A stretch of 64,000 nt of DNA from Rubricoccus marinus (GTDB lineage Bacteria > Bacteroidota > Rhodothermia > Rhodothermales > Rubricoccaceae). A program made the translations under genes and the position numbers. Under the pieces are notes generated by a model that was not told where the DNA came from, did no database searches, and saw nothing but the letters and a program-made list of their open reading frames with translations. The number at the start of each line of letters is the position of its first letter. Position 1 is the first letter of the stretch. This document shows, piece after piece, positions 43,743 to 53,643 of this stretch. The DNA lies in NCBI RefSeq assembly GCF_002257665.1, contig NZ_MQWB01000001.1:3076619-3140618 (forward strand), given 5' to 3'.

Positions 43743-45134
43743 CTAGGCGGCCTCCTGCTTCGCGTAGGCGTCCATAAAGCGGATGCTGGCCTCAATGCCC
43801 TGGTGGAAGCGGTCGATGCCGAACTTCTCATTCGGCGAGTGGATGGAGTCCGAGTCCAGGCCGAAGCCCATGAGGACGGTGTCCAGGCCGAGGATCTTCT
43901 TGAAGTCGGCCACGACGGGGATGGAGCCGCCCTCGCGCGTGAAGTGCGGCTTCTGGCCAAAGACGCCTTCAAGCGCGACCGAGGCCGCCTGCATCGCGGG
44001 CGCCGTGGTGTCCACGATGGAGCCGTGGCCGCCGTGGAGGTCGCGGAAGTCCAGCGTCATCGTGTCCGGGACGTGCTTCTCGAAGTGGGCGCGGAGCTTG
44101 TCCGTGATCTCGCCGGGCGTCTGATCTGGGACGAGGCGGCAGGAGATCTTGGCTGTGGCTTTCGACGGCAGAACCGTCTTGGCGCCCTTGCCGGTGTAGC
44201 CGCCCCAGATGCCGTTGACATCCAGCGTGGGCCGGCCGCTCGTGCCTTCGAGCGCGGAGTAGCCCTTCTCGGACTTGGTCGTCTTGACGCCGGCCTCCTC
44301 CATCCACGCCTCCAGGTCGAACGGGAGCGCCTTGTACGCCTCGCGCTCCTCTGGCGTGAGGTCGCGCACGTTGTCGTAGAAGCCCTCCACGGTGACGTGG
44401 TGGTCGGCGTCGTGCAGGTCCGAGATCATCCGCGCGAGCGCGTTGACGGGGTTCTCCACGCCGCCGCCGTAGACGCCGGAGTGGAGGTCCTTCTTGGGGC
44501 CGGTCAGTTCCACCTCGACGTAGGCCAGCCCGCGCAGGCCGTACGCGATGCTGGGCACGCCGGGGGCGAACAGCGCCGTGTCGCTCACGAGGACGACGTC
44601 GGCCGCCAGAAGCTCTTTGTTCGCCTCGATAAAGCCCGGCAGGTGGACCGAGCCGGACTCCTCCTCGCCCTCGATCATCAGCTTGATGTTGACCGGGAGG
44701 TCCTGCCCGCTCTGGAGGTACGCCTCCAGCGCCTTGACGTGCATGTACGCCTGCCCCTTGTCGTCGGCGGAGCCTCTGGCGACGATGTTGCCGTCCACCT
44801 CGACGGGCTCGAACGGCGGTGAGTCCCAGAGGTCGAGCGGGTCCGGCGGCTGCACGTCGTAGTGGCCGTAGACGAGGACCGTCGGCGCGTCGTCCGAGAC
44901 GTGGATCTCGCCGTACACGATGGGGTGGCCGGGCTTGTCCGCCGAGCCGGTCTCCATCACCTCGACGGTCTCGACGCCGATGAGGCGGAGGTTGTCGGCC
45001 AGCCACTCGGCGGCCTGGCGCGTCTGCGGGGCGTACTCGGGGTCGGTTGAGATGCTCGGGATGCGGAGCCACGCCTTGAGTTCTTCGACGAAGCGGTCGG
45101 AGTGGGAGCGGGCGTAATCGAGAGCGGCGTCCAT
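43743..45134 (-). CDS. M20-family dipeptidase
   Basis: A 463-residue cytosolic zinc peptidase. Metal ligands are in the usual order: YGHYDVQPPDP (His and catalytic Asp), ARGSADDKGQ (bridging Asp), IEGEEESGS (catalytic Glu and ligand Glu), DLHSGVYGGGVENP (dimer loop His) and HSPNEKF near the C-terminus. The layout matches the dipeptidases that cleave Xaa-Xaa dipeptides, including carnosinase-like enzymes. All residues are present and length is normal. Stand-alone, with a 16-bp palindrome 26 bp upstream of its start that may be an operator. Confidence 0.92.
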   Translation of the reverse strand: MDAALDYARSHSDRFVEELKAWLRIPSISTDPEYAPQTRQAAEWLADNLRLIGVETVEVMETGSADKPGHPIVYGEIHVSDDAPTVLVYGHYDVQPPDPLDLWDSPPFEPVEVDGNIVARGSADDKGQAYMHVKALEAYLQSGQDLPVNIKLMIEGEEESGSVHLPGFIEANKELLAADVVLVSDTALFAPGVPSIAYGLRGLAYVEVELTGPKKDLHSGVYGGGVENPVNALARMISDLHDADHHVTVEGFYDNVRDLTPEEREAYKALPFDLEAWMEEAGVKTTKSEKGYSALEGTSGRPTLDVNGIWGGYTGKGAKTVLPSKATAKISCRLVPDQTPGEITDKLRAHFEKHVPDTMTLDFRDLHGGHGSIVDTTAPAMQAASVALEGVFGQKPHFTREGGSIPVVADFKKILGLDTVLMGFGLDSDSIHSPNEKFGIDRFHQGIEASIRFMDAYAKQEAA

Positions 45135-45160
45135 GCTGGGAGGTGTGTTGGAAAGAGGAT

Positions 45161-45176
45161 GCCGTCTATAGACGGC
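45161..45176. promoter_or_regulatory. Perfect 16-bp palindrome upstream of the dipeptidase
   Basis: GCCGTCTATAGACGGC, centred about 34 bp before the start codon. Unrelated to the interspersed element. The AT core and position suit a repressor site overlapping a promoter. Confidence 0.45.
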
Positions 45177-45199
45177 GGCACCCGCCCTCCGGTTCGCCA

Positions 45200-45217
45200 G
45201 CCTCTGGCGCCAGAGGC
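45200..45217. repeat. Exact 18-bp palindrome
   Basis: 18 of 18, upstream of the dipeptidase start, in a divergent gap. Confidence 0.85.
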
Positions 45218-45333
45218 TAGTGCTTCGGTGCTCGGCCGATGTTCACCCCCCTGCCGTCGCTCTCGCTCCGGCTGTCCCCCCTCGCGAAGCAAGGGGGGAT
45301 GGGATGCCGTGCTCGACCCCCCGTCCTCGTTCC

Positions 45334-45359
45334 GTCTCCCCTCGCGCGTGAGGGGAGAC
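45334..45359. repeat. Strong isolated hairpin
   Basis: GTCTCCCCTC / GAGGGGAGAC, 10 bp with a 6-nt loop and no U-tract. Of the type seen as dispersed intergenic repeats in many bacteria. Confidence 0.6.
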
Positions 45360-45407
45360 CGGTTTGCGACCGGAGGGGAGCAAACCAGAGGGGTGGCTCC
45401 CGCGCCT

Positions 45408-45425
45408 CGCCAGAGGCCTCTGGCG
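45408..45425. repeat. Palindrome in the inverse arrangement
   Basis: 18 of 18, about 125 bp before the PARP start codon. Confidence 0.85.
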
Positions 45426-45454
45426 CACGCTCAAGCACCCCAGATCGCGGGCAG

Positions 45455-45485
45455 AAAAAACACCTCTGGCGCCAGAAGCAGGTGT
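45455..45485 (-). terminator. Orphan intrinsic terminator
   Basis: ACACCT / AGGTGT closes an inner CTGGCGCCAG palindrome and is followed on the minus strand by TTTTTT. No gene on that strand ends here; the only minus-strand sequence ahead of it is the start of the PARP gene region. Confidence 0.5.
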
Positions 45486-45549
45486 GCCATTCGGGTGTCA
45501 CCACGGCCTCTGAGATTGCCACCACTCACTTGTACAGCACCCCGTTCAC

Positions 45550-46773
45550 ATGTCCGCGCCCGCCCCCGACCGCCGCCCCACCGTCCGCCTCGTCATGGTG
45601 ACCGGCGCCAACAACAACAAGGTCTACGAGATGGCCGAGAACGGCGACGGCACGTTCACGGCGCGCTTCGGCCGCATCGGCGCCGCGCTTCAGGCCAAGA
45701 CCTACCCCACGAGCAAGTGGGACGCCACGTACCGCGCGAAGACGCGGAAGGGCTACACCGACGTGACCGCCCTCGCGGCCGAGGAAGGCGAGCGCGGCTT
45801 CGCCATCGACGCGCCAGAGGTCGCCGCGCTTGTCGACCACTTGCAGGCCGCCGCCGACGACGCGCTGCGCGCGCAGTACCTCGTCGCGCCCGACGCCGTC
45901 AGCGCCCGCCAGGTCGCCGAAGCCCAAGCACACCTCGACGCCCTCAGCGCGATCGCGCTCGACGGCTCGCCAGAGGCCCGCGACGCCTTCGATGCGCGCC
46001 TGATCGACCTGTTCACCACCATCCCGCGCAAGATGGGCGACGTGCGCGACTTCCAGCTGAGCGAGCGCCTGGAGGCCTCTGGCGTGCCGGACCTGCTCAA
46101 CAGCGAGCAAGAGGCGCTGGACCGCATGGCGCAGCGCGTGCGGCTCGGCGAAGCGCCCACGCGCCCGACGTTGATGGAGGCGCTCGGCTTCGAGCTCCGC
46201 CCCGTCACCGACGAGAAAACGCTCCGCCGCATCCGCAGCAAGATGGGCGACCACGCCGACCGGCTGGAAAGCGCGGTCGAGATTGTGCACCCGCGGCTGC
46301 GCGAGCGGTTCGACGCCCACGTCGGCGCCGCGCGCCAGAGGCGGACGGAGTTGCTGTGGCACGGCTCGCGGTCCGAGAACTGGCTCTCCATCCTGGAAAC
46401 CGGCCTCTGCCTCCACCCGGACCGCGCTGTGATCACGGGCAAGATGTTCGGCTACGGGCTCTACTTCGCGCGCTCGTTCCAGAAGTCGCTGGGCTACACG
46501 TCGCTCCGCGGCGCCTTCTGGACCGGCCAGCGCGCCGACCGCGGCGTCCTCGCGCTCTACGACGTGCACATGGGCCGCCCGCTCACCGTGGACCGCCACG
46601 AGGCGTGGTGCCCCGCCCTCACCGCCGACGGCCTCGACGCCAGAGGCAGCCTCTGGCGCCGCTACGACTCGCTCCACGCCCGCGCGGGCGAGATGCTCCG
46701 CCACGATGAGATCGTGGTCTACCGCGAGGCGCAGGCCTGCCCCCGCTACCTGGTGGAAGTCCGCGAGGGATAG
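45550..46773 (+). CDS. Bacterial PARP: WGR, regulatory helical and ADP-ribosyltransferase domains
   Basis: A 407-residue homologue of eukaryotic poly(ADP-ribose) polymerase. A WGR domain covers about 10-75 (VYEMAENGDGTFTARFGRIG, with Phe replacing the name-giving Trp), an alpha-helical regulatory domain about 85-200, and the catalytic domain about 205-405. The H-Y-E triad is complete: H271 in LLWHGSRSENWLSIL, Y305 in GKMFGYGLYFARSFQKSLGY and E387 in HDEIVVYREAQACPRYLVEV. Thus true polymer or mono-ADP-ribose transfer from NAD is expected, probably triggered by DNA breaks through the WGR domain. No glycohydrolase gene is adjacent. A small winged-helix-like gene follows after 84 nt. Confidence 0.93.
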   Translation: MSAPAPDRRPTVRLVMVTGANNNKVYEMAENGDGTFTARFGRIGAALQAKTYPTSKWDATYRAKTRKGYTDVTALAAEEGERGFAIDAPEVAALVDHLQAAADDALRAQYLVAPDAVSARQVAEAQAHLDALSAIALDGSPEARDAFDARLIDLFTTIPRKMGDVRDFQLSERLEASGVPDLLNSEQEALDRMAQRVRLGEAPTRPTLMEALGFELRPVTDEKTLRRIRSKMGDHADRLESAVEIVHPRLRERFDAHVGAARQRRTELLWHGSRSENWLSILETGLCLHPDRAVITGKMFGYGLYFARSFQKSLGYTSLRGAFWTGQRADRGVLALYDVHMGRPLTVDRHEAWCPALTADGLDARGSLWRRYDSLHARAGEMLRHDEIVVYREAQACPRYLVEVREG

Positions 46774-46857
46774 GGCATGGAGGGAGGCGCACGCGCCTCT
46801 CCCCCACGCCGCATCCGCACGTCCCGCGCCACTCTCAATCCCCTTACCCCTCTAGCC

Positions 46858-47133
46858 ATGACCCGCTACACCTCCCTCACCGACCGCGCCGTGCGCGCCG
46901 CCGCCGTTCTCGACGCCGAGCGCACCGGCACCACCACCACGCTCGACGTCAAACGCGAACTCCGCGACCGCGGCTACTGGGCCACCCAGGGCGACGTCTC
47001 GCGCCGCCTGGCGCGCATCGCCTCTGGCGAGGGCTGGCCGTGGTGGGGCATGGGCCGCTTCCGCCTCTACGGCGTCCCCGCCAGAGGCCAGAGGGGGCCG
47101 GCGGTGGCCTCGCGGGCCGCGCTCGTCAACTGA
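46858..47133 (+). CDS. Small protein next to PARP, possibly winged helix
   Basis: A 91-residue protein I do not recognise. TTTTLDVKRELRDRGYWATQGDVSRRLARIASGEGWPWWGMGRFRLYGVP has the helix-turn-helix and beta-wing spacing of a winged-helix DNA-binding domain, with an aromatic-rich wing (GWPWWGMGRFRLYG). The remainder is a short basic tail. The ATG at 46858 follows a pyrimidine-rich leader 84 nt after the PARP stop, so the two may share a transcript; a DNA-binding partner of PARP is inference. Confidence 0.65.
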   Translation: MTRYTSLTDRAVRAAAVLDAERTGTTTTLDVKRELRDRGYWATQGDVSRRLARIASGEGWPWWGMGRFRLYGVPARGQRGPAVASRAALVN

Positions 47134-47151
47134 GCCTCTGGCGCCAGAGGC
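47134..47151. repeat. Exact 18-bp palindrome between convergent genes
   Basis: 18 of 18, directly after the stop codon of the small gene and 7 bp before the ispH stop. Confidence 0.85.
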
Positions 47152-47158
47152 TTGCCCT

Positions 47159-48412
47159 CTAGGCCGCCTCCTCCGCGAACGGCTCGACGGCCTCGTCGAC
47201 CGAGCGCGCGTCGGGGAACCACAGGAGCAGCCGCCGGATGACCTCGTCCAGGAGCGCGTCCGGGCACGAGGCGCCGGCGGTCAAGATCACCCCCAGGGGG
47301 CCGCCGCCAGAGGCCTCTGGCGGGAGCCAGTTGGGTGACACGCGCGGCTCCTTGACGCGCCAGTCGAAGTGGCGGATCTCGCGCGGGCTCACCATGTCGT
47401 CCGCGTCGGAGATGAAGTAGGTAGGCAGGCCGGCGTCCTCGCACAGCTCCACCAGGTGGCTGGTGTTGGACGAGTTGTAGCCTCCCACGACGAGCGCGAG
47501 GTCGGCGCCGGCTTCGATGAGGGCCAGCGTCGCGTCCTGGTTCTCTTTTGTCGCGTAGCAGAGCGTGTCGCTCGTGTCCGCGAACGCGCCCGCGTCGCCA
47601 TCGCGCGTGACCACGGCCTCGCGCACGCGTTCCGCGATGGCGGCCGTCTCCGTCGCCAGCATCGTCGTCTGGTTGACCACCCCGAGCCGGGCTAGGTCAC
47701 GCGCCGGGTCGAACCCGTCCGACGTGCGGCCTTCGAAGCGCGACCAGAAGAAGTCGACGCCCTCGCGGCCTTCGATCACCGCCGCGAGCGCCTCCGTCTC
47801 CTCCATGTCGCGCACGACCACAACCGGCGCGCTCTCCTTCGCGTGGCCAAACGTGGCGCGCGTCTCCTCGTGGTTGCGCTTGCCATGCACCACCACGGTG
47901 TAGCCCTTCGCCCCGATGTGGGCGCTCTTTTTCCACACGCGGACGACGAACGGGCAGGTTGTGTCGTAGGTCTTGGGCTCGATGCCTCTGGCGCGGAGGT
48001 CTTCCACGATCTCCGGCGGCGCGCCAAAGGCCGGGATGATGACGATGTCGCCCGGCCGGAGGTCGTCATAGGGGATGAGTTGCTCGCCGGTCGTGGTGCG
48101 GAGAAAGCGGATGCCTCTGGCGACGAGGTCCTCGTTGACGTGCGAGTTGTGGATCATCTCCGAGAGGAGGAAGATCCGCCCGCCAGAGGCCATCTCCGGG
48201 TTCTCGTCCAGCGCCCGGTACGCGATCTCGATGGCGTTCTCCACGCCGAAGCAGAAGCCGAAGTGCCGCGCCAGCTTGACGCGCAGCGGCCCGAAGTCCA
48301 GCACGCTCGGCGAGAGGTCCTTTTTGCGAGGGTCCGCGTCCCGGCGGGCCGCTTTGACACGGCTCACCACGGGGCTGCGGTAGAAGTCGGGGACGTCGAA
48401 CTGGCGGGCCAT
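47159..48412 (-). CDS. ispH: 4-hydroxy-3-methylbut-2-enyl diphosphate reductase
   Basis: A 417-residue [4Fe-4S] enzyme that makes IPP and DMAPP in the last step of the MEP isoprenoid pathway, which also feeds retinal for the rhodopsin. The three cluster cysteines are in HFGFCFGVENAIEIA, YDTTCPFVVRVWKK and TAGASCPDALLDEVI. The catalytic Glu and His regions (HGKRNHEETRATFGH, VNQTTM) are present. It is longer than E. coli IspH by about 100 residues, as in the cyanobacterial and Bacteroidota long form, with an N-terminal extension. Start at the ATG with MARQFDVPDFYRSP; a TAGCTTTG box lies 31 nt upstream. Confidence 0.95.
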   Translation of the reverse strand: MARQFDVPDFYRSPVVSRVKAARRDADPRKKDLSPSVLDFGPLRVKLARHFGFCFGVENAIEIAYRALDENPEMASGGRIFLLSEMIHNSHVNEDLVARGIRFLRTTTGEQLIPYDDLRPGDIVIIPAFGAPPEIVEDLRARGIEPKTYDTTCPFVVRVWKKSAHIGAKGYTVVVHGKRNHEETRATFGHAKESAPVVVVRDMEETEALAAVIEGREGVDFFWSRFEGRTSDGFDPARDLARLGVVNQTTMLATETAAIAERVREAVVTRDGDAGAFADTSDTLCYATKENQDATLALIEAGADLALVVGGYNSSNTSHLVELCEDAGLPTYFISDADDMVSPREIRHFDWRVKEPRVSPNWLPPEASGGGPLGVILTAGASCPDALLDEVIRRLLLWFPDARSVDEAVEPFAEEAA

Positions 48413-48442
48413 GGGGTGCGTGGGGGATTCCCCTAGAGGAGG

Positions 48443-48450
48443 CAAAGCTA
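48443..48450 (-). promoter_or_regulatory. -7 box TAGCTTTG upstream of ispH
   Basis: Exact TAnnTTTG match, identical to the octamer before dacB, with a leader of about 25 nt. Confidence 0.5.
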
Positions 48451-48538
48451 GGGGGCACAACGAGCCGCACCTCGCGGGGTTGCTCGAAATCGGAGTGCAT
48501 CTGGGCTAGAATGCGTCAGACGTTCACCGCCTCTGGCG

Positions 48539-48644: not shown

Positions 48645-51458
48645 ATGTCCCTCCGATACCTCTTGCGCTCGTGCTTCGCACTGGCGCTCCTCCTCACTGC
48701 CTCTGGCGCGGTCGCTCAAAGCGATCTCGTCATCACCGGCGTCGCCGACGGGCCTCTCTCAGGAGGCACCCCGAAGGTGCTCGAACTCTACGCGATCAAC
48801 GACATCCCGGACCTCTCGGTCTACGGCGTAGCTGTTGCAGCCAACGGCAACGCATCAAGCGGAGCCCCGTCGTTCATGCTTGGCGCAGACGCGGCCTCCG
48901 CTGGCGACTACATCTACGTCGCGACCGAGACCGAGCAGTTCAACAACTTCTTCGGCTTTGAGCCGGACTACACCGGCTCCCTGTTCATCAACGGCGACGA
49001 CGCCGTCGAGCTGTACCTCAACGGTGCCGTGGTGGACGTGTTCGGCGAAGTCGGCGTGGACGGCACGGGCCAACCGTGGGAGCACCTCGACGGGTGGGCC
49101 TACCGCATGGATGGTACCGGTCCTGAAGGCGCCACCTTCACGGTCTCCAACTGGACGTACAGCGGCGTGGATGGCCTCGAAGGCGGTAGTACCAACGCGA
49201 CAACGAACGTCCCCTTCCCGGTCGGCACGTACAGCACGACGCCGAGCATGGGCCCGCAGACCTTCACCGCGCTCGCCAGAGGCGAGTTCGAGGTCCCGGC
49301 CGTTGAGACGATGGGCAAGGGCGGCATCACCGCCGTCCTGGACGGCACGATGCTGACCGTAACGGGCGCCTTCGCCTACCTCGAGAGCGACTACAACGCC
49401 GCCGTCGGCGCGCACCTCCACGGAGGCGCCTCTGGCGAGAACGGCCCCGTCCGCTACTCCCTCACGCCGACGCTCGACGCGGACAACCGGGGCGGCTTCT
49501 TCGCCGCCGGGGAGAACATGTTCAACGTCCGCGAGACGTTTGCGGACTCGCTCCGCGCCGGCCTCGTGTACTTCAACCTCCACACCGTAGACAACGGCTC
49601 TGGTGAGATCCGCGGCCAGCTCGGCATGAACGCCGATGCGCTTCCCGTCGCGCTCAGCGGCGACCAGGAGGTCCCGCCGTTCGAGACGAGCGCCAGCGGC
49701 TCCGCGACCGTGACGGTCGACGGCACGACCGTGACCGTAACCGGCTCCTTCATGGGGCTCACCGGCGACTACCAGGCGTCGCACGTCCACGCCGGCGCCA
49801 GAGGCATGAACGGCCCGGTCGTCTTCGCGCTCAACCCCACCGTTCCGATGGCGATGGCGCGCAGCGGCGAGTGGGAGGCTGCGAACAACATGTTCGAGGT
49901 GAGCACCACCTTCGCGGACTCCCTCCGCGCAGGGCTCGCGTACATCAACGTCCACTCCGATGCCTCGCCGAGCGGCGAGATCCGCGGCCAGATCGGCTTC
50001 GAGAACGAGATGGACGCGGAGCCGATGGACATCGCTGACGTCCGCGCCGGCGGCGACGACCAGCAGGTCACCATCGTGGGCGTGGTCACGCGCTCGCAGG
50101 GCCGCATCACGTACGTGCAGGACGAGACGGCTGCACTCGCCATCTTCCAGACGTCGGGCGCCTTCCGCACGGCCGTGGACGCCGGAGATATCGCCGCTGG
50201 CGACTCGCTCCGCGTGACCGGCATGACGGGAAGCTTCAACGGCTTCTTCCAGATCGACGGGGTCGACAGCTTCGAGGTCATCTCGCGGGACAACGCGCTG
50301 CCGCTCTACCAGCGCGTGACGCTGGCAGAGATCGCCGCCAACGGCGAGCAGTACGAAAGCGAGCTGCTTGAAGTCCGCGGCCTCATGTTCAGCGCCGAGG
50401 GCGCGTTCGCCGCATCGACGACGTACCAGATCGGTGACCAGAGCGGTGCCGTCGCGCTCCGCACGCCGAGCGCGAGCGACACCCGCATCGCGGGCGTCGA
50501 CATCCCGCAAGAGGCCGCCATCTTCCGTGGCGTTCTCGGCCAGTTCGACAACGAGGACCCACGTGACAGCGGCTACCAGCTCACCCCCATTCGGATGAGC
50601 GACGTTGTGGCGCAGGGCGATCCGTCGCAGCTGGTCATCAACGAGATCCTCTATGACCCGGCCTCCGAGCTCGCGGGCGACGCCAACGGCGACGGCACGC
50701 GTGACGGGGTCCAGGACGAGTTCGTCGAGATCGTCAACGCGGGCACGAGCTCCGTCGACCTCGGCAACTTCGTGATCGAGGACGGCGCATCGCTGGGCTC
50801 GGACGACGTGACGTTTATCCGTCACCGCTTCCCGGTCGGAACGGTTCTCGAAGCCGGTCAGGCTGTTGTCGTCTTCGGTGGCGGTACGCCGACCGGTGAC
50901 TTCGGCACCTCGATCGTGCAGACGGCCAGCAACACTGGCGGTCTCGGCCTGAACAACGGTGGCGACACCGTGACGCTCGCCGACGCCCCGATCCAGAACA
51001 ACGCTGGCGGCAACGTCATCGCGACCGTGACCTACGACGGTTCGGTTCAGGACGAGGCCATCGCGCGCATCCCGGACCTCACGGGTGACTTCGCGGCTCA
51101 CACCACGAACCCGCAGAACCCCGTTCGCTTCTCGCCTGGCGTCTCCAACCTCACCGGTGGAGGCGGCGGATTCCCGAGCGCGAGCGAGGAGACTCCGGAC
51201 GGCACGATAGTGCTGACCGTGGCGAACCCGCTCCGCGCCGACGCGCAGGTCCGCTTCGAGACGCCGGTCTCTGGCGACGTCTCCCTCGTGCTCTACGACG
51301 CGCTCGGCCGCCGGGTCGCCGTGCTCGCCGAGGGCGACCTCGCCGCCGGCGCGCACACGGCGACGCTGCGGGCGTCGTCGCTGGCCCCGGGCGTCTACGT
51401 CCTCCGCCTCGCGGCGAGCGGGACGCAGATGACGCGGACGCTGACGGTGGTGCGCTAG
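48645..51458 (+). CDS. Type IX-secreted multidomain protein (lamin-tail, CHRD, OB-like domains)
   Basis: A 937-residue exported protein. Signal peptide 1-25 (ASGAVAQ); a lamin-tail-like domain about 26-185; two CHRD domains about 200-335 and 338-455 with repeated VPAxET, HLHGGASGENGPV / HVHAGARGMNGPV and RAGLxYxNxHT; an OB-fold-like domain about 470-560; a second lamin-tail domain about 660-830 (VINEILYDPASELAGDANGDGTRD); and a C-terminal sorting domain (about 860-937: NPLRADAQVRFE, LYDALGRRVAVL, GVYVLRL) of the type IX kind. It should be released to or displayed on the cell surface. The domains suggest extracellular binding; no enzyme motif is seen. The 3' end is duplicated in the next gene. 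Confidence 0.9.
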   Translation: MSLRYLLRSCFALALLLTASGAVAQSDLVITGVADGPLSGGTPKVLELYAINDIPDLSVYGVAVAANGNASSGAPSFMLGADAASAGDYIYVATETEQFNNFFGFEPDYTGSLFINGDDAVELYLNGAVVDVFGEVGVDGTGQPWEHLDGWAYRMDGTGPEGATFTVSNWTYSGVDGLEGGSTNATTNVPFPVGTYSTTPSMGPQTFTALARGEFEVPAVETMGKGGITAVLDGTMLTVTGAFAYLESDYNAAVGAHLHGGASGENGPVRYSLTPTLDADNRGGFFAAGENMFNVRETFADSLRAGLVYFNLHTVDNGSGEIRGQLGMNADALPVALSGDQEVPPFETSASGSATVTVDGTTVTVTGSFMGLTGDYQASHVHAGARGMNGPVVFALNPTVPMAMARSGEWEAANNMFEVSTTFADSLRAGLAYINVHSDASPSGEIRGQIGFENEMDAEPMDIADVRAGGDDQQVTIVGVVTRSQGRITYVQDETAALAIFQTSGAFRTAVDAGDIAAGDSLRVTGMTGSFNGFFQIDGVDSFEVISRDNALPLYQRVTLAEIAANGEQYESELLEVRGLMFSAEGAFAASTTYQIGDQSGAVALRTPSASDTRIAGVDIPQEAAIFRGVLGQFDNEDPRDSGYQLTPIRMSDVVAQGDPSQLVINEILYDPASELAGDANGDGTRDGVQDEFVEIVNAGTSSVDLGNFVIEDGASLGSDDVTFIRHRFPVGTVLEAGQAVVVFGGGTPTGDFGTSIVQTASNTGGLGLNNGGDTVTLADAPIQNNAGGNVIATVTYDGSVQDEAIARIPDLTGDFAAHTTNPQNPVRFSPGVSNLTGGGGGFPSASEETPDGTIVLTVANPLRADAQVRFETPVSGDVSLVLYDALGRRVAVLAEGDLAAGAHTATLRASSLAPGVYVLRLAASGTQMTRTLTVVR

Positions 51459-51684: not shown

Positions 51685-53643
51685 ATGCCCCTTCGCCACA
51701 CCTCTCGCAGCCTTCTCGTGCTGCTACTCGTCGCCATCCTCGCGCCCGCGGCCACAGGCCAGCGCCTGTTCCGCGCCGAGCTTACCGGCGCCCAGGAAGT
51801 CCCGCCGGTCACGACCACCGCCAGCGGCCTCGCCACCGCCGTCTTGGACGGCTCGACGCTCATCCTCCGAGGCCAGTTCGCCGGGCTGGAAAGCGACTAC
51901 AACGCCACGGTCGGCTCGCACATCCACCGCGCGCCGGTCGGCGCCAATGGATCCGTCGTTTTCCCCTTGAGCCCCTCCCTAGACCGTGATCTCCGCGGAG
52001 GTCAGTGGTACGGGCCTGAGAACCGCTTCTCTCTCACCACCGACCAGATCCAGGCCCTGCGCGATGGCCTGTACTACGTCAACGTGCATTCCGTCGCCAA
52101 CGCCGGGGGCGAGATCCGCGGGCAGCTCGTCCAAGCGGTGTCGCTCAACGAGGTCCGCTCGGATCAGCCGGGAGCCGACGTGGATGAGTACGTGGAGTTG
52201 TCCGGGCCTCCCGGCACGAGCCTCGATGGCTACTCGTTCGTCGTCATCGGAGACGGCCCGGGCGGCATCGGTGTGATCGAGGAGGTGATCGACCTCTCCG
52301 GACAGATCATCCCGGAAGACGGATACTTCCTCTTCGGCCAACTCGAGTCCGCGACGCCGGACTTCGACGTGGACCTCAACCTCGAAAACTCCGACGCCGT
52401 GACCTACCTCCTCGTAGAAGGCGTCGCCGGCACCGAGGGGGACGACCTCGACACTGACGACGACGGCGTGCTCGACGCCGAGCCGTGGTCCGCCATCGCC
52501 GACGCGGTGGGCGCAGCCTCTGGCGACGAGGGTGACGCGACCTACGCGGCGCAGTTGGGCTTTGAAGACGTTGGCCCCGACGGGGACTTCCGCCCGGGCC
52601 ACCTTTTCCGCAACCGCGACGATGGCGCGTGGCGTATCGGCACGTTTAGCCGCGATGGCGGCTTCGATACGCCCGGCGAAATCAATGCCTCGGCGGCGCT
52701 CGTCCAGATCGTCCACAACTCCCCAGACCAGAGCCTCGGGACGGTCGACGTGTACCTCGACGACGAGCTTCTCGTAGACGACCTCGCGTTCCAGGGGGCG
52801 ACTCCGTTTGTCCTCTTGCGCGCCGGCGCCTCCGCCAAGCTGGACGTTGCGCCAGGGGCCTCCGCGTCCTCGGCCGACAGCTTCTTGGGAACGGATGTCA
52901 CTCTCAACGGCTCGCGCTCCTACTACGCGGTCGTCGTCGGGATTGGTGGCGACAACGGGACGCCGGACGATGACCCGATGATCGTCCTGTACGACAACGC
53001 TCGGCCGTTCTCCACCACGCCGGGCACGGTAGATGTCGGGTTCCTCCATGGAGCCCTGGAGACGGGCGCCGTGGACGTGCGTACGGGCGTGACGCAGCAG
53101 GCCATCCTGTTCAACGCCGTCCCGTACGGCACCTTCGCGGACGAGACCTACCAGCCCACGGTCCCGGCCATCGTGGACATTGACGTCACCTCCGCTGAGC
53201 CCAACGTCGTGCTGGCGCAGTTCAAGCCGGACCTCTCTGGCCTCTCGGGCCAGAGCGCGCTGCTCATCGCGACGGGCTCCGCGGCGCCAGGGGCTGCCGT
53301 CCCGGTCGGGATCCTCGTGGTCCAGCCCGACGGCACGACGGCGCTTTCCGCCCCGGTCGACGTGGCGAGTGAGGAGACCCCGGACGGCACGATGGTGCTG
53401 ACCGTGGCGAACCCGCTCCGCTCCGACGCGCAGGTCCGCTTCGAGACGCCGGCCTCTGGCGACGTCTCCCTCGTGCTCTACGACGCGCTCGGCCGCCGGG
53501 TCGCCGTGCTCGCCGAGGGCGACCTCGCCGCCGGCGCGCACACGGCGACGCTGCGGGCGTCGTCACTGGCCCCGGGCGTTTACGTCCTCCGCCTCGCGGC
53601 GAGCGGGACGCAGATGACGCGGACGCTGACGGTGGTGCGCTAG
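51685..53643 (+). CDS. Type IX-secreted protein with CHRD, lamin-tail-like and DUF4397 domains
   Basis: A 652-residue exported protein. Signal peptide 1-22 (APAATGQ); one CHRD domain about 25-145 (RAELTGAQEVPPVTTTASG, HIHRAPVGANGSVVF, RDGLYYVNVHSVANAGGEIRGQL); a lamin-tail-like domain about 147-330 with acidic, possibly calcium-binding DTDDDGVLDAEP; a DUF4397-like domain about 335-555 (VQIVHNSPDQSLGTVDVYLDDELLVDDLAFQGATPFVLLRAGA); and a type IX sorting domain about 575-652. The sorting domain is nearly identical to that of the gene before it. Both are separate units, each with its own terminator. Confidence 0.9.
   Translation: MPLRHTSRSLLVLLLVAILAPAATGQRLFRAELTGAQEVPPVTTTASGLATAVLDGSTLILRGQFAGLESDYNATVGSHIHRAPVGANGSVVFPLSPSLDRDLRGGQWYGPENRFSLTTDQIQALRDGLYYVNVHSVANAGGEIRGQLVQAVSLNEVRSDQPGADVDEYVELSGPPGTSLDGYSFVVIGDGPGGIGVIEEVIDLSGQIIPEDGYFLFGQLESATPDFDVDLNLENSDAVTYLLVEGVAGTEGDDLDTDDDGVLDAEPWSAIADAVGAASGDEGDATYAAQLGFEDVGPDGDFRPGHLFRNRDDGAWRIGTFSRDGGFDTPGEINASAALVQIVHNSPDQSLGTVDVYLDDELLVDDLAFQGATPFVLLRAGASAKLDVAPGASASSADSFLGTDVTLNGSRSYYAVVVGIGGDNGTPDDDPMIVLYDNARPFSTTPGTVDVGFLHGALETGAVDVRTGVTQQAILFNAVPYGTFADETYQPTVPAIVDIDVTSAEPNVVLAQFKPDLSGLSGQSALLIATGSAAPGAAVPVGILVVQPDGTTALSAPVDVASEETPDGTMVLTVANPLRSDAQVRFETPASGDVSLVLYDALGRRVAVLAEGDLAAGAHTATLRASSLAPGVYVLRLAASGTQMTRTLTVVR

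Follow-up and report, generated by a model that had tools for sequence, protein, structure and literature searches.

A PARP of a largely phage-encoded lineage in Rubricoccus marinus, paired with a winged-helix gene and probably gated by DNA breaks

In human PARP2, nick binding involves Asn127, Lys130, Trp151 and Arg153, of which Asn127 and Arg153 touch the regulatory domain as well as the DNA and Lys130 aids coordination of the phosphorylated end; Asn129 and Arg153 relay the signal to the helical domain, and the N129A variant is inactive (PMC8190142). Roles for the residues of the WGR domain are also given in PMC4081085, whose numbering follows a different isoform. Although PARPs have long been recognized in bacteria, no function, substrate or dedicated eraser has been assigned to them. 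A Clade 1 of these proteins, from Cytophagales and Clostridiales, was described by Garcia-Saura 2018 (PMC5966428); in the available part of that source its members combine WGR and PARP_cat domains with no Pfam PARP_reg match and a helical domain in models, and phage members or partner genes are not discussed. Phages are a further source of such proteins: phi4:1 and Aeh1 are listed as phage PARPs in PMC4245714, and phage PARPs are discussed in PMC7824862 and PMC9503650.

The window, a 64-kb stretch of the R. marinus genome, contains an ORF at positions 45550-46773 of the positive strand that begins with an ATG start codon and encodes a 407-aa PARP, the only PF00644 protein of this genome. The PARP catalytic family (PF00644) matches the product at an E-value of 1.2e-21 in Pfam, and phrog_23333 of the PHROGs library covers it over its full length (E-value of 3e-47); NCBIfam gave no match. 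The WGR domain scores 16-20 bits, below the Pfam cut-off of 22, and PARP_reg (PF02877) has no match at all in the Pfam search, leaving the WGR and helical domains insecure by sequence libraries alone. A structure was predicted with AlphaFold2 from 58 relatives (mean pLDDT 89.9, pTM 0.84) and compared with the PDB. Residues 5-407 can be aligned with human PARP1 in complex with a DNA double-strand break (4dqy; Z 25.6, 364 residues, 5.7 Å), and residues 85-407 with catalytic fragments of PARP1-4 that include the helical domain. The predicted structure and the PDB comparison thereby secure the putative WGR and helical domains, and they uphold the order WGR, helical, ART that the preliminary description of this DNA had proposed. 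On the positive strand, the WGR domain spans residues 11-72 approximately (45580-45765; sub-cut-off Pfam score, structure and invariant residues), the helical regulatory domain about residues 85-212 (45802-46185; structure only) and the ART catalytic domain about residues 215-406 (46192-46767; Pfam, PDB sequence match and structure). The H-Y-E triad is complete, as had been claimed: H271 (46360-46362), Y305 (46462-46464) and E387 (46708-46710), assigned by alignment of relatives, are kept in every one of the 78 full-length relatives, the count leaving out two that are truncated. A broken active site in close relatives, which the preliminary description had named as grounds for abandoning its view, was looked for and is absent, as the triad is invariant among these full-length sequences.

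Human PARP2 is the best match of the family profile (E-value of 2e-34) and also the best PDB sequence match for the window PARP. The protein has in common with human PARP2 and PARP1 (ARTD2/ARTD1) the WGR-HD-ART order, the H-Y-E triad and the NNNKYY-type and (W)GR motifs, and the model compares with their structures at Z scores of about 23-26; it differs in having no zinc fingers, BRCT or N-terminal region, in an aromatic F/Y for W, in an identity of about 20-24%, and in a lineage-specific stretch of the ART domain, SLxGxFWTGGxADRG. The profile alignment to PARP2 places NNNKyY on NNNKYY and yGRvg on WGRVG, and with residue numbering matched through the NNNK motif, the window's NNNK (N21-K24) and FGR (40-42) match PARP2 N127-K130 and W151-R153. 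All 58 sequences compared keep N21, N23, K24 and R42. Because the gating residues of PARP2 are both matched and invariant, we strongly infer that the window PARP is DNA-gated.

The best explanation of this protein, to which we assign a probability of about 0.66, is a PARP1/2/3-type ADP-ribosyltransferase gated by DNA breaks, from a lineage common to large phages and a few Bacteroidota chromosomes, and a DNA-break response is its best-supported function. Counting against this reading is the tryptophan essential in PARP2-type WGR domains, since the position of PARP2 Trp151 is occupied by F40 in the window PARP and by Tyr in most relatives. Further points against it, described below, are the lack of repair genes beside the window copy, the restriction of the macrodomain and wHTH (winged-helix) links to separate phage clades, and the decay of the PARP in one Bacteroidota lineage. 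By analogy with PARP2, the WGR domain would dock on a nick or a 5′-phosphorylated end, upon which the helical domain would unfold and the ART domain would move ADP-ribose from NAD onto itself, onto break-site proteins or onto the DNA end, leaving a mark that may flag or protect the break until sealing.

The rarity of such proteins in bacteria, noted in the preliminary description, is borne out by a PARP homolog in five of the 114 genomes of the order and by PF00644 above the Pfam cut-off in about 5 of the 394 genomes sampled across the phylum; partial, sub-cut-off PF00644 matches in five further genomes (G144, G169, G272, G416 and G443) were not counted. Scanning the genome collection with strict patterns recovered at least 7 loci of the family, and scanning viral contigs recovered at least 109 phage contigs that encode it, many of them 100-300 kb long. 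Named phages with a relative are Cellulophaga phi4:1 and phi17:2, Klebsiella 05F01, Xanthomonas XacN1 and Stenotrophomonas RAS14; the phi4:1 PARP (ALO80040.1), like phrog_23333, belongs to the same family as the window PARP over its full length, at 27% identity to it. The family is largely viral, and every relative found in the genome collection and viral contigs, eukaryotes being outside the search, is phage or bacterial.

A mostly phage-encoded family is consistent with a phage host-takeover or counter-defense enzyme that would poly- or mono-ADP-ribosylate host proteins, such as RNA polymerase, and was captured in the chromosome with no role in DNA repair, and host-protein modification is what two surveys propose for phage PARPs (PMC7824862, PMC9503650). 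We regard this as quite improbable for the window PARP, because the gating residues and the partner gene described below are kept over deep divergence, the chromosomal copies lie among host genes with no phage remnant, and these copies are under purifying selection (dN 0.084 and dS 0.556 between G105 and G106, dN/dS about 0.15).

A tree of 76 sequences was built with Clade 2-type bacterial PARPs as outgroup proxies and no Herpetosiphon sequence included. In it, 67 rows comprising the window lineage and its phage relatives group together (100/99) and are split at 100/99 from the PARPs of Pseudomonas, Variovorax, Paenibacillus, Jeotgalibacillus and Tsukamurella. A Herpetosiphon-type (Clade 2) identity, the kinship suggested in the preliminary description, was rejected on this split from the Clade 2 proxies and on the unmatched PARP_reg, and gives way to placement in a separate, mostly phage-encoded lineage; the characterized bacterial PARPs, of Herpetosiphon and C. 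difficile CD160, belong to the other clade. The literature, in the portions available, yielded no activity report for any member of the lineage of the window PARP. Within the group, the PARPs of the window and of G048 share a long stem that arises from a radiation of phage and Bacteroidota sequences left unresolved by the tree; the chromosomal copies fall into two groups, and a single clade of the nine chromosomal Bacteroidota copies is not rejected by the AU test (p 0.59). The 100/99 ingroup also holds L024 (a Cytophagales MAG), L029 and L030, the sequences of PMC5966428 itself being outside the tree, and by its architecture the window PARP can best be assigned to the published Clade 1, as a new member. 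The PARPs of L024, L027, L028 and G105-G107 sit among ordinary chromosomal genes. The L030 contig carries phage-like replication genes, and by analogy the Clostridiales members of Clade 1 in PMC5966428 may be phage-borne.

Two features of individual gene models were observed among the relatives. The Saprospiraceae PARPs L027 243-1601, L028 1866-3245 and L026 3200-4564 have possible upstream starts, which would lengthen the N-terminus ahead of the WGR domain by about 40-50 residues. In L083 (position 1115) and L084 (position 6139), phage PARP genes that are otherwise intact contain an in-frame TAG, which suggests that TAG is read as an amino acid in these phages.

Directly 3′ of the PARP gene is a 91-aa ORF (46858-47133, positive strand) for a winged-helix protein, hereafter wHTH (TTTLDVKRELRDRGYWATQGDVSRRL), identified by co-occurrence, profile searches and predicted structure. 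Its homologs come after the PARP in G048, G105-G107, L027 and L028; ten phage loci also have one next to the PARP or in its vicinity. A wHTH profile search of the 114 genomes finds exactly the five PARP genomes, with one copy each, always adjacent; were the genes independent, the chance of this exact overlap would be about 7e-9, the five genomes representing only two lineages. The PARP thus does not stand alone, being one half of a fixed pair, a conserved two-gene unit that the preliminary description had missed. This pairing bears on the idea of a stray eukaryote-type PARP acquired by horizontal transfer, beside which the small gene would lie by chance. Such an origin accords with the sporadic presence of the gene, and horizontal transfer is favored by earlier authors (PMC4245714, PMC5966428); it is nevertheless strongly disfavored by the exact co-occurrence and adjacency, repeated in separate phage lineages, and by the phage or bacterial nature of all relatives found in the genome collection and viral contigs.

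The predicted fold of the wHTH is a winged helix (pLDDT 86), for which structure comparison returned generic winged-helix matches only, none with an E-value below 0.001; ArgR, a Pfam match at an E-value of 0.3, was rejected as chance-level. In the Bacteroidota unit, gene context suggests that the wHTH may be a DNA-binding partner of the PARP, acting as regulator, acceptor or cofactor. Alignment of the window copy (G000) with G048 gave no convincing conserved operator 5′ of the PARP. In the wider phylum sample, the wHTH of G338 adjoins a degenerate PARP without a helical domain and with the triad Y changed to H, and in G444 the wHTH occupies the corresponding locus with the PARP lost; the loss of the helical domain and the Y-to-H change in G338 show the enzyme to be dispensable in one lineage. 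Both cases of decay, at L147 6463-7293 (+) and L146 7910-8200 (+), fall in one Bacteroidota family, where the wHTH persists.

The cassette site, delimited by locus comparison, extends from 45135 to 47158, between an M20 peptidase gene (43743-45134) and lytB (47159-48460), both on the negative strand. The same interval holds PARP and wHTH in G000 and G048, a Coa1-like gene in G047 and G049, a methyltransferase in G044 and G043, and a two-component-type insert in G050. Since the PARP identity between G000 and G048 (73%) is near that of the flanking genes (78-80%), an ancestral cassette with repeated loss probably fits best. A prophage origin of the gene was rejected, as its neighbors are the M20 peptidase, MatE, LytB and secreted-protein genes, with no phage genes or integrase. 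No ligase, macrodomain or other repair gene adjoins the window PARP. Downstream, 48645-51458 and 51685-53643 encode neighboring large secreted-type proteins with near-identical C-terminal ends and related repeats, likely a duplication.

The phage loci differ in their neighbors. A macrodomain ORF lies near the PARP in 40 of 69 distinct phage loci, and 36 of these 40 are immediately upstream of it on the same strand, with a gap of at most 20 bp. In human TARG1, K84 and D125 are catalytic (PMC9967889). The phage macrodomains share with human TARG1/OARD1 a profile match (15 sequences, E-value of 4e-38) and, in most cases, these residues, an equivalent of K84 being present in 35 and of D125 in 32 of 41 distinct phage macrodomains, with one or both lacking in 11 of 41, including several second, non-adjacent copies; they differ from the human protein in standing in an operon with their presumed writer. 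A second macrodomain without the TARG1 lysine was observed a few kb from the PARP-adjacent one at L052 8786-9202, L081 2408-2917 and L083 6082-6555. Macrodomain and wHTH were never found together in any of the 69 loci; the link to the macrodomain is confined to a single phage clade, that to the wHTH to other clades.

A DNA ligase, ATP-dependent (PF01068) or NAD-dependent (PF01653), is present in 32 of the 69 phage loci and lies no more than three genes from the PARP in 17 of 66, and eight loci have a contiguous ligase-macrodomain-PARP arrangement. This ligase link is suggestive; as phage replication genes cluster, the nearness of a ligase counts for less than the adjacency of the macrodomain, for which such clustering does not account. 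Phage phi4:1 has the gene order PARP, small hypothetical gene, DNA ligase, and L105, nearest to it in the tree, has a wHTH at the position of the small gene. Judging from gene context, the adjacent TARG1-like macrodomain in phages would erase the ADP-ribose mark and the adjacent ligase would seal the break. It is tentatively proposed, as a possibility that we hold rather doubtful, that phages have a complete reversible PARP pathway, its break-gated writer, TARG1-type eraser and ligase encoded in a single operon, and that Bacteroidota chromosomes have a two-gene version whose wHTH is a cofactor, acceptor or reader of the PARP and a counterpart of HPF1 in role. If true, the PARP/TARG1 logic of eukaryotic repair would exist, and perhaps have originated, in the world of viruses and bacteria.

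The same gene pairs raise the main rival to a DNA-break response, a toxin-antitoxin or defense role, which we consider unlikely. In a DarTG-like toxin-antitoxin or abortive-infection module, the PARP, once freed or in response to breaks in phage DNA, would poison the cell by protein or DNA ADP-ribosylation or NAD drain; the wHTH would serve as antitoxin as well as autoregulator, and the antitoxin of phages would be the macrodomain. The two-gene unit with its small predicted DNA-binding partner, sporadic distribution and variable insertion spot is consistent with such a module, as is a phage writer adjoining a TARG1/DarG-class macrodomain, ART-macrodomain pairs being established toxin-antitoxin systems (PMC5179494, PMC9967889). 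Arguing against it, the defense-system library PADLOC gave no match for the window PARP, the wholly allosteric architecture, apparently gated by DNA and with its gating residues invariant, does not resemble that of DarT, and the phage copies lie near ligase and other replication genes. The wHTH also outlives the decayed or lost PARP in G338 and G444, though an antitoxin would too, and its gene comes after that of the PARP, whereas antitoxin genes more often precede the toxin gene. DarTG itself was rejected as an identity for the window copy, given that the ART is a PARP, PADLOC is silent and the window has no macrodomain; the common feature, an ADP-ribosyl writer beside a TARG1-class macrodomain, is confined to the phage relatives, and the writer there is a WGR-HD-ART PARP and not DarT.

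The fixed bacterial partner gene and the adjacent phage TARG1-like eraser and ligase provide specific, testable partners. The PARP-macrodomain operon, the PARP-wHTH pair and the ligase link are not mentioned in the available portions of PMC4245714, PMC7824862 and PMC9503650, and as far as these portions of the cited literature go, the obligate winged-helix partner, the largely viral lineage and the phage writer-eraser-ligase operons are new. Anaerobic ribonucleotide reductase genes were also observed near the PARP in many phage loci (L128 4280-7254, L043 9702-11903 and similar), and a Klebsiella phage with a distant PARP has one next but one to it.

What removes the modification was left open in the preliminary description, which saw no macrodomain or glycohydrolase within reach. 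The 64-kb window indeed contains no macrodomain or ARH gene, and to this extent the statement stands; the phage relatives, with a TARG1-like macrodomain directly upstream, now offer a strong lead. The genome search that had been recommended for PARG and macrodomain proteins was positive for the latter, with one MacroD-type macrodomain (GGGGVD motif) found together with two ARH-type hydrolases, each lying at a distance of more than 1.4 Mb by contig coordinates; bacterial PARG (PF10021) had no match in this genome, in a search with no positive control that leaves its absence unproven. MacroD-type and ARH-type genes also occur in 8 and 5, respectively, of 14 control genomes, none of which has PF00644, and are therefore not PARP-specific; a general MacroD or ARH enzyme may serve as the eraser in the window's genome. 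A TARG1-like gene had no match in this genome or in G048. A TARG1-like eraser tied to the PARP within the order was rejected: distant ones occur in G106, G107 and the PARP-less G050, and the last of these shows that chromosomal TARG1-like genes are not linked to the PARP.

A separate observation concerns the composition of the R. marinus genome. The 10-mer GCCTCTGGCG/CGCCAGAGGC has no copies in the relatives' loci examined, including same-genus G046, and occurs 234 times in the 64-kb window (3.66 per kb); a further 20 kb from this genome (L014) contains 79 copies (3.95 per kb). It is also found inside coding sequence, where it contributes to PEASG and LWR peptides, and is a genome-specific, HIP1-like hyperabundant word.
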